NCBI RefSeq assembly: GCF_000423725.1
Contig: NZ_KE384084.1
Location: 248,001-312,000, forward strand
Origin: Streptococcus devriesei DSM 19639
GTDB taxonomy: Bacteria; Bacillota; Bacilli; Lactobacillales; Streptococcaceae
DNA length: 64,000 nucleotides
Direction of reading: 5' to 3'
Shown here piece after piece: positions 29,612 to 37,938 of this stretch. The translations under genes were made by a program, and so were the position numbers. The notes under the pieces are model-generated. The model worked only from the letters and a program-made list of their open reading frames with translations. It was not told the DNA's origin and made no database searches. Every line of letters starts with the position of its first letter. Positions within the stretch are counted from its first letter, which is position 1.

Positions 29612-31206
<1,595 letters not shown>

Positions 31207-31245
31207 CGTATATTGTTATTTTACCTGCTATACAAGTCTGCCTGT

Positions 31246-34695: not shown

Positions 34696-36597
<1,902 letters not shown>

Positions 36598-36599
36598 TC

Positions 36600-36856
36600 A
36601 TAAGATGCTAAGGGCGTTAAGAAAACCGTATAAAAATAGGAGATTGACGCAGAGTCTTTGAAAGACTCAAGGAAGCTCCACTTTTTTACTAGGTTTTTAG
36701 CCCGAGCTCAATTAAATAAGATGCTAAGCCGTTAAGCGACTCACAGGAAAATAGGAACCATGACGAAGATGCTTGCATCTAGGAAATGGTTATCTTTTTC
36801 CAAAGAGTCGTAGGCGAGCTCGATTAAATAAGATGCTAAGCCGTTAAGTGACTTAT
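36600..36856. repeat. Tandem array of a 112-116 bp structured repeat in the bglP leader
   Basis: ATAAGATGCTAAG occurs at 36600, 36716 and 36828, each followed by a CGTTAAG-like sequence; AAATAGGA, TGACG and GAGCTC-ATTAA are also kept between units. The two full units keep the same three nested stems with different bases. Unit one has AAAACC/GGTTTT, GGAG/CTCC and GAGTC/GACTC. Unit two has CGACTC/GAGTCG, AACCAT/ATGGTT and AGATGC/GCATCT. The array lies between the LicT attenuator and bglP, ending 15 bases before the start codon. The core sequence is, from memory, found between genes in other streptococci; I cannot name the element. Confidence 0.75.
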
Positions 36857-36930
36857 TGATTTTAAATCATTGAACTCAGCCAGTCCAGCCTTAGCATAGT
36901 TATTTGTAAGAATATTACCGTTTTATACGC

Positions 36931-37029
36931 AAAAAAACCTAAACAAATACCAAATGACCAGACAAAGAGACACTCTTTGCAATCAATTCGTATTTATCTA
37001 GGTTTTGCCTGCTTAACCAGTAACAATCC
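36931..37029 (-). promoter_or_regulatory. LicT antiterminator (RAT) and overlapping attenuator of bglP
   Basis: On the minus strand GGATTGTTACTGGTTAAGCAGGCAAAACC (37001-37029, quoted in parts: GGATTGTTACTG and GCAGGCAAAACC) is an almost exact ribonucleic antiterminator of the BglG/SacY class. Its 3' end overlaps a terminator made of AACCTA-ATAAATAC and GTATTTGTTTAGGTT with a long T run (36931-37006). LicT bound to the RAT prevents terminator formation. An extra stem CAAAGAG/CTCTTTG lies in the loop. Confidence 0.92.
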
Positions 37030-37041
37030 TTTACGACTAGT

Positions 37042-37077
37042 ATTATAGCATACCATTTTATTTTTGCAAGCGCTTTT
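37042..37077 (-). promoter_or_regulatory. bglP promoter with overlapping cre site
   Basis: TTGCAA (37064-37069), 16 bases and TGCTATAAT (TATAAT at 37042-37047, extended -10) on the minus strand. AAAAGCGCTTGCAA (37064-37077) is a good CcpA cre site covering the -35 box, so glucose should repress initiation directly. Confidence 0.8.
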
Positions 37078-37101: not shown

Positions 37102-37938
37102 CTACTGACTAGCTTCCAGACGCTGAATATGAATGGTGAGATAAACTTGCTCATCCTTGCTCATGGGAAAATCGTAAGCAGACACGACATAAGATTTGAT
37201 TTTTTCGGTACAGGCAAAGGCATGCGGATAATTTTCCTTGACTTGCTCATAAAGGAAGGCGTCATTCTTGCCCTGAACAAGACCGTTTGCCACACGCTGA
37301 GCAAAATATTGAACATGGGTGACAAAGCGATTGTAACTGATCGACTCTTCATCTGTGATTTGGCCGAAATGCAGGCGGACAATTTCCAAAATATCAATCA
37401 CAATCTTGGAAATCAGCCGATTTTTCTCCAGCAGACCGCCGTCTTTTTGGGCATTAATAAAGTGTAATGCAATCGAAGCCGCCTCATCATCAGCCAGCTC
37501 TACTCCTAGCTTCTCTTTGATGTACACGATAGCTTCTCTGCCCAGCTGAAATTCTCTGGGATAAAATTTTCTGACTTCCCAGGCCAGCGGATTTTGTATG
37601 ATCAAACCTTCTTTTGTCCGCTCAATGGTATAATGCAGGTGATCAGCCAAGGCAATATGGAGTGAAATATCAAAGGTTTGCTCTAAAACTTCCTGTCCTT
37701 GATGGATAATATCAAGAACCAGCTCTATTTCATCGCTGTCAAGGTCAACATAGACACGTGATAGTTCATCAGCCATATCCGTATTTTGCAAAACGAATCG
37801 TTTTTCGATTAATTCTTGATTGACCTCATCGCCGGCCTTCTTTTGAAAACCCAGCCCTTTTCCCATAACAATAATCTCTTCGTCCTTATCCCCCAGAACC
37901 TGAACGACATTATTATTAAATACCTTATCAATTTTCAT
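37102..37938 (-). CDS. licT: BglG-family transcription antiterminator LicT
   Basis: The 278-residue RNA-binding antiterminator has an N-terminal CAT domain (1-56, MKIDKVFNNNVVQVL) and two PTS regulation domains. PRD1 carries His100 (LADHLHYT) and His159 (SIALHFINAQ); PRD2 carries RFVTHVQYFAQR and YLTIHIQRL. Phosphorylation by BglP silences it and by HPr activates it, as known for the family. Its target RAT lies just downstream, before bglP. A transcript from licT may read into the leader. Confidence 0.95.
   Translation of the reverse strand: MKIDKVFNNNVVQVLGDKDEEIIVMGKGLGFQKKAGDEVNQELIEKRFVLQNTDMADELSRVYVDLDSDEIELVLDIIHQGQEVLEQTFDISLHIALADHLHYTIERTKEGLIIQNPLAWEVRKFYPREFQLGREAIVYIKEKLGVELADDEAASIALHFINAQKDGGLLEKNRLISKIVIDILEIVRLHFGQITDEESISYNRFVTHVQYFAQRVANGLVQGKNDAFLYEQVKENYPHAFACTEKIKSYVVSAYDFPMSKDEQVYLTIHIQRLEASQ

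Follow-up and report, generated by a model that had tools for sequence, protein, structure and literature searches.

A tandem array of hairpins stands in the leader of the beta-glucoside gene bglP within the stretch of Streptococcus devriesei DNA analysed here (64,000 nucleotides, hereafter the window), and the question it raises is whether the array serves this gene as an RNA element or is a hairpin mobile repeat, two options which the first-pass annotation had left side by side. The two full tandem units and partial third described there are found in the sequence: the word ATAAGATGCTAAG recurs at 36600, 36716 and 36828 (spacings of 116 and 112 nt), a 39-nt word with 95% identity is common to 36703 and 36815, and the third copy turns into a degenerate stretch directly after its left end (36828-36856). 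The stem words named for units one and two are likewise present, and besides these three stems there are three more helices, two of them outer ones (in unit 1, GA.GCT/AGCTC and GGGC/GCCC) and one rich in A/T. A unit measures ~110 nt and forms one long nested hairpin, both ends of which meet at the base. Folded singly and compared with dinucleotide shuffles, units 1 and 2 have z values of -3.6 and -4.8 on the plus strand, and of -3.2 and -4.6 on the minus strand. An Rfam search returned no family above its gathering score at the window units; elsewhere on the minus strand of the window it matched the MarS sRNA (RF01732, 25284-25426) and the L10 leader (RF00557, 54753-54883).

The start codon of bglP is at 36583-36585 on the minus strand, and the mRNA therefore contains the reverse complement of the units as they read in window orientation (W). 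Along the transcript the order is licT, antiterminator/terminator, degenerate third unit, unit 2 (subtype B), unit 1 (subtype A), AAAGGAG and ATG, with unit 1 at 16 nt from the ATG and an intact Shine-Dalgarno sequence in between. The array does lie, as had been proposed, between a LicT attenuator and the bglP ribosome site, with licT and an RF03530-like element upstream and the Shine-Dalgarno sequence and start downstream; this leader element we take, from its sequence, to be a LicT-type antiterminator/terminator.

Table 1. Features of the bglP region in the window; R1 is the covariance model described in the text.
Feature	Position	Strand	Remarks
bglP (beta-glucoside PTS IIABC)	34696..36585	-	ORF; TIGR01995, E 8.6e-211
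bglP Shine-Dalgarno AAAGGAG	36592..36598	-	between unit 1 and start codon; locus L066
Unit 1, subtype A	36602..36713	+ (window orientation W)	R1 108.9 bits, E 1.2e-26, within training set; fold z -3.6
Unit 2, subtype B	36718..36825	+	R1 75.6 bits, E 1.6e-17, outside training set; fold z -4.8
Partial, degenerate third unit, left end	36828..36856	+	common word ATAAGATGCTAAGCCGTTAAG; no R1 match
Presumed LicT-type antiterminator/terminator, bglP leader	about 36914..37046	-	weak Rfam RF03530 match, 25.5 bits, below gathering score 80
licT	37102..37938	-	ORF; NF046042 LicT, 333.7 bits, cut-off 300 exceeded

We have analysed the pairing with a covariance model, R1, built from 11 subtype A copies of the S. 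devriesei genome on a hand-derived nested hairpin of 34 pairs. From 24 copies aligned by sequence only, RNAalifold obtained no structure, because MAFFT misaligns the stems of one subtype with respect to those of the other. Trained on subtype A alone, R1 nonetheless recovers subtype B, window unit 2 included (75.6 bits), and this recovery is evidence less open to the objection of model fitting. Once identical rows had been removed, the alignment of 150 of the 158 R1 matches (80 named loci) held 146 distinct copies, in which 94.5% of pair cells are standard pairs as against 71.1% in shuffles, double changes occur in 30 of the 34 pairs as against 23.5, and the covariation score reaches 0.563 as against 0.152 in shuffles and 0.05-0.09 with a slid partner. 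Alignments made by fit to R1 are biased towards it, and kinship of the sequences inflates the contrast with shuffles. The 70 distinct R1 matches of the dnaJ loci behave comparably (94.8% standard pairs, double changes in 28/34, covariation 0.538), and in this set the measure of further pair types was matched by 46 of 500 shuffles. The copies thus demonstrate that the predicted pairing is kept while stem sequences change, and the earlier reading of the stems along these lines has gained strong support from the covariance model, the shuffles and the dnaJ loci, with covariation scores among copies above those of shuffles.

The covariance-model search of streptococcal genomes that had also been suggested places the array in a wide context. 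Indeed, a BLAST search with the array against its own genome gives 44 matches at E<=10, and R1 gives 57 at E<=1; among the 41 genomes of a sample of relatives, the S. devriesei genome included, 22 have BLAST matches at E<=0.001. At the same threshold R1 matches 116 of the 118 genomes of the genus, the two genomes of that set in which it found no match being G004 and G005, and as at most 32 candidates were scored per genome, copy numbers are minimum values. Of 198 genomes sampled from the order, with 19 candidates scored in each, 40 have a match, of which 27 belong to the same genus and 13 to five other genera. Among the matches listed, a DNA pattern scan gives as hosts S. suis, S. mitis, S. 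oralis, S. pseudopneumoniae, S. parasanguinis, S. gordonii, S. ratti, S. equinus and S. gallolyticus; a pattern match in Lactobacillus hominis (L141) received no confirmation from R1 and was excluded from the counts. The window array had no match in the phage and plasmid collections searched with it. Judged from these sequence searches, the array represents, with its two units, a family of modular hairpin repeats which is dispersed among the streptococci and thinner in other genera of the order. Within the S. devriesei genome a subfamily (L077-L081) has a GC content of 0.47-0.48, and two of its members, L077 and L078, have long near-identical flanks, as if they lay within a larger repeat; at L075 and L076 the same unit, with identical flanks of tRNA-like sequence, opens contigs C4 and C10, so that repeats stand at assembly breaks. 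A weak R1 match on the minus strand of the window (31144-31213, 18.8 bits, E 0.069) is perhaps a relic or a chance match.

A comparison of bglP leaders, made without L453, L456 and L458, where the gene start was not located, indicates what the array contributes at its own site. The antiterminator word GGATTGTTACTG...GCAGGCAAAACC is present in all 6 leaders compared, and GAAAGGAGCC precedes the ATG in 5 of the 6, G042 differing. Among the closest relatives examined (G059 and G058, with BglP 99% and 95% identical over 80 residues) the leader has one B unit and two B units, respectively, and in G016, G053 and G042 it has none. Unit A of the window would accordingly be either a lineage-specific gain or a unit lost in the relatives; copies of TTAGCATCTTAT stand on both sides of the extra block at the window bglP, a layout compatible with exchange between repeats. 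A role of the units as cis-regulatory RNA for bglP or for sugar genes is suggested by the array itself and by the copies that stand before sugar genes, but units also precede dnaJ, alaS, era, prfA, hisA, deoD and atpD, and with the three unit-free bglP leaders this makes such a role hardly credible; a sugar-regulon element is ruled out on the same ground, as copies precede genes of many functions. As far as the compared loci tell, the units are not an element specific to the bglP leader, since bglP elsewhere has 0, 1 or 2 of them behind a similar attenuator, and most likely they are carried along in the read-through transcript and by themselves have little effect.

A distinct scenario results from the position of units at other genes. 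One end of each unit, AAGATAC/GTATCTT (the former as read in window orientation), abuts predicted coding boundaries: among 377 distinct units an ORF ATG lies within 24 nt of this end in 82 and of the other end in 1, and an ORF stop codon lies at -6 to +8 nt in 47 and 12, respectively. At the dnaK stop, units of the opposite orientation are seen to start at the codon or a few nt past it (L326, L333, L335), and in some genomes the dnaK-dnaJ spacer is bracketed by inverted units. The distances from unit to ATG are bimodal, being mainly 2-6 nt or 13-21 nt, and in the latter group, to which bglP belongs, the Shine-Dalgarno sequence lies between unit and start. Of 495 distinct copies, 69 lie at most 7 nt from an ATG, and 68 of these have GAAAGG or GGAAGG within 80 nt on the 5' side of the hairpin, the flank of the 69th being cut off. 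GAAAGG stands within 75 nt upstream in none of the 43 units that have a Shine-Dalgarno sequence of their own after them, and in 17 of the remaining 271.

The contrast can be followed at orthologous genes. For dnaJ the start was located in 62 of 64 loci, and in 50 of the 62 a unit lies 2-5 nt before the ATG; these 50 loci have no local Shine-Dalgarno sequence, and all have (A)GAAAGGA 5' of the unit, either abutting it or up to 65 nt off behind a prefix, whereas 7 of the 12 loci without an R1 unit have a local Shine-Dalgarno sequence. When dnaJ, alaS, era and prfA are taken together (without L344, L357 and L375, whose gene starts were not located, and with a local Shine-Dalgarno rule of ten words, fewer being used in the dnaJ-only count), a local site is found in 0 of 61 unit-bearing loci as against 68 of 90 unit-free ones, and the upstream GAAAGG/GGAAGG in 61/61 as against 1 of those 68 (Fisher's test, 6e-24, the loci being related and hence not independent). 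The 61 unit-bearing loci are of dnaJ, alaS and era, no prfA locus of the set having an R1 unit at its start. Among the 22 unit-free loci without a local site the upstream word is found in 16 and is missing in 6. Several of these 16, for instance era L391, L398 and L414 and prfA L424, show a short or diverged hairpin between GAAAGG and ATG, and such hairpins are also seen in alaS (L365, L366, L380, L382) and in era L394 and L418; they may have arisen from units by deletion, the split site being preserved. In the S. devriesei genome itself the split arrangement occurs at hisA, deoD and era and is absent at dnaJ (L341). Clearly, where a unit abuts the start codon, the candidate Shine-Dalgarno word stands on the far side of the hairpin. 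An N-terminal extension was considered in place of a split site and rejected, as 60 of the 61 loci have an in-frame stop between GAAAGG and ATG. Translational coupling is another way to read the far-side word: GAAAGG would serve a short frame in the repeat, whose termination would feed ribosomes to the gene without looping-out. A frame with GTG or TTG as its first codon does start 7-11 nt past the word and end within 20 nt of the gene's ATG in 8 of the 61 unit loci, but such a frame exists in these 8 only, the unit starts right behind the word in 21 of 61 and no frame is common across subtypes, all of which renders coupling very improbable.

We have also folded the segments from word to ATG. 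The Shine-Dalgarno-to-start spacers measure about 107-180 nt, with one of 87. In 59 distinct dnaJ and alaS segments folded alone (two alaS segments, L359 and L368, starting at a GAAAGG within the unit), the exterior stretch beyond the hairpin measures exactly 7 nt in 22 cases, and its median is 10 nt as against 14.8 in shuffles, with a mean energy z of -3.9. When folded in a wider context the median path is 16 steps as against 125 along the linear sequence, and the median unpaired values are 0.50 for the Shine-Dalgarno sequence and 0.58 for the AUG. Predicted folding thus lends modest support to a hairpin bridge; the exterior spacing is a weak discriminator, as is folding in the wider context, and the case for split sites therefore rests on the comparison of Shine-Dalgarno sequences.

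These observations would be accommodated by a unit that folds on itself in the mRNA and is skipped, so that it may sit directly 5' of a Shine-Dalgarno sequence, bglP being an example, or else separate the Shine-Dalgarno GAAAGGA from the start codon. In the latter position the closed base of the hairpin would join the two halves of the split ribosome-binding site, and the fold would for this reason matter to the host genes (dnaJ, alaS, era, prfA, hisA, deoD and others). We consider it fairly probable, from the sequence comparisons above, that the array belongs to a dispersed modular hairpin family whose folded units are passed over in mRNA, closing split ribosome-binding sites, and have little effect of their own at bglP. 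Against split sites count the 6 of 90 unit-free loci with neither local nor upstream site, and alaS L378 and L379 are ambiguous. Both options initially offered for the array, RNA element and mobile repeat, are in part supported, the first by the units inside ribosome-binding sites elsewhere and the second by their dispersal and variable number.

There is precedent for such bridging. In phage T4 genes 38 and 25, structure between Shine-Dalgarno sequence and AUG cuts the effective spacing from 22 to 5 nt and from 27 to 11 nt, according to the accessible part of the account (PMC3014915), and the structured spacer resembles that of the 61/61 unit loci of dnaJ, alaS and era; by analogy the hairpin is probably looped out here too and the split site closed. 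The T4 cases differ in being two phage genes with short, gene-specific structures, whereas here a dispersed repeat provides spacers of the length given above at many housekeeping genes. If the bridging is real, split ribosome-binding sites would be no phage curiosity but, made by repeats and evolving fast, would be common at the housekeeping genes of a large genus, and start annotation or expression prediction that seeks a Shine-Dalgarno sequence within 20 nt would fail at these genes. Varied stems with one job, together with orthologues with and without the insertion, would moreover make initiation over folded spacers directly testable. The byp elements of yeast mitochondria are also mobile hairpins that translation passes over, like the units proposed here, but they lie inside coding sequence.

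The types of pairs in the stems bear on what maintains them. Counted on the window strand, the 12673 pair cells of 386 distinct units comprise 11747 Watson-Crick, 211 G-T, 172 A-C and 543 other combinations. Split by direction of transcription, the counts are 69 G-T and 36 A-C for units read along the window strand, a mild wobble excess in the transcript, and 93 and 87 for those read opposite to it, with no excess; in the 1100 cells of dnaJ-adjacent units they are 8 and 11. In a small control on tRNAs, 168 cells comprised 144 Watson-Crick, 16 G-T, 0 A-C and 8 others; these came from the 14 of 25 tRNAs retained by a filter which required Watson-Crick or G-T in at least 10 of 12 pairs and itself disfavours A-C. 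Scarce wobble pairs on both strands are unexpected if selection acts on RNA alone, and this scarcity bears on how genomes maintain long hairpins. In fact, such near-exclusive Watson-Crick pairing, with G-T barely above A-C and unlike the tRNA control, suits a plain palindromic, MITE-like mobile repeat, in which pairing would be kept at the DNA level, by a folded single strand or cruciform needed for mobilisation or by arm-templated repair, while the positions in mRNA would be what purifying selection tolerated; the varying unit number at bglP suits it as well. It leaves unexplained, however, both the far-side Shine-Dalgarno words of all 61 unit loci and the persistence of reduced hairpins at split sites, and the words of the internal loop are conserved and asymmetric, an asymmetry which arm-to-arm repair would erase. 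We regard a repeat of this plain kind as rather unlikely, and keep to units that are passed over in the mRNA. A broader scenario, plausible but held tentatively, is that mobile hairpins colonised ribosome-binding sites throughout the genus, splitting Shine-Dalgarno sequence from start without loss of translation, that dnaJ, alaS, era and prfA now depend on the fold, and that the near-strict Watson-Crick rewriting of stems on both strands hints at arm-to-arm copying at the DNA level.

As to kinship with described repeats, the accessible passages of PMC3049150 present the pneumococcal BOX as a modular, intergenic, folded and array-forming streptococcal repeat of few species; the units share all of these properties except the last, being genus-wide, and have another sequence. 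RUP (107 bp) and SPRITE, in the same passages, are short folded pneumococcal repeats with mean GC contents of 27.5% and 28.1%, nearly absent outside S. pneumoniae and S. mitis (PMC3049150); the units, with about 31-51% GC and their presence in 116/118 genomes of the genus, do not answer to either. The part of the D39 annotation available gives BOX, RUP and SPRITE as the small repeats (PMC6212727), and that of a structured-RNA survey names one Streptococcus motif, before pnuC (PMC8632094). The units might still be the BOX-type modules boxE/boxB/boxF of S. suis, described in 2011, in which case the family would be known in part, the novelty being limited to its spread through the genus and its placement. 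By description, which is all that was compared, the two agree in module length, arrays and genus: the modules average 115 and 133 nt in modular arrays (PMC3049150, in part), and S. suis contigs contain R1-family units. The same partial source, however, has BOX-type repeats in hardly any species but S. pneumoniae, S. mitis and S. suis, against the genus-wide matches of R1, and its accessible text makes no mention of placement at start codons (PMC3049150), so that we find this identity quite unlikely. A literature search, beyond whose reach much subscription literature lay, found no description of hairpin repeats that split ribosome-binding sites. As a modular interspersed repeat the family is of a known kind; what would be new is that split ribosome-binding sites tolerate it, or use it, as their bridge.

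Orthologous sites vary in whether they have units and in how many, and such presence and absence, by which MITEs and other mobile repeats are recognised, was observed at atpG-atpD, bglP and dnaJ alike in the sequences compared. For the atpG-atpD spacer the start was located in 26 of 30 loci, L275, L276, L287 and L293 being left out of the comparison, and the R1 scan of atpD and dnaJ loci covered 93 of 94, without L275. Two R1 units each are present in the S. devriesei genome and G020, a unit-like stretch without an R1 match is discernible by eye in G010, and other spacers are short and without a unit (e.g. L269, L271, L272, L280). At six loci (L283-L286, L288, L294) the spacer has a mini-hairpin with similar ends, and in L291 and L292 the same mini-hairpin has an element inserted inside, which we take to be BOX-like. 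R1 fails to match this element, and on that presumed identity the family was rejected as being the pneumococcal BOX itself. Tandem arrays built in the same way are also found in the sample of the order: in L261 (G033, of a non-streptococcal genus), for example, six tandem units of two alternating types extend over 1501-2213. Elements that contain units are, as their sequences are parsed here, composites of joined modules. Joined to the right side of units we have observed a GGCAGAGG..TTGTTATCTAAGTG..CACTTGATAACAAAC hairpin (L002, L008, L009, L011), and joined to the left side a GGTTAGTAAAATCGACTAACC hairpin with GTGTCGC (L003, L009, L012).
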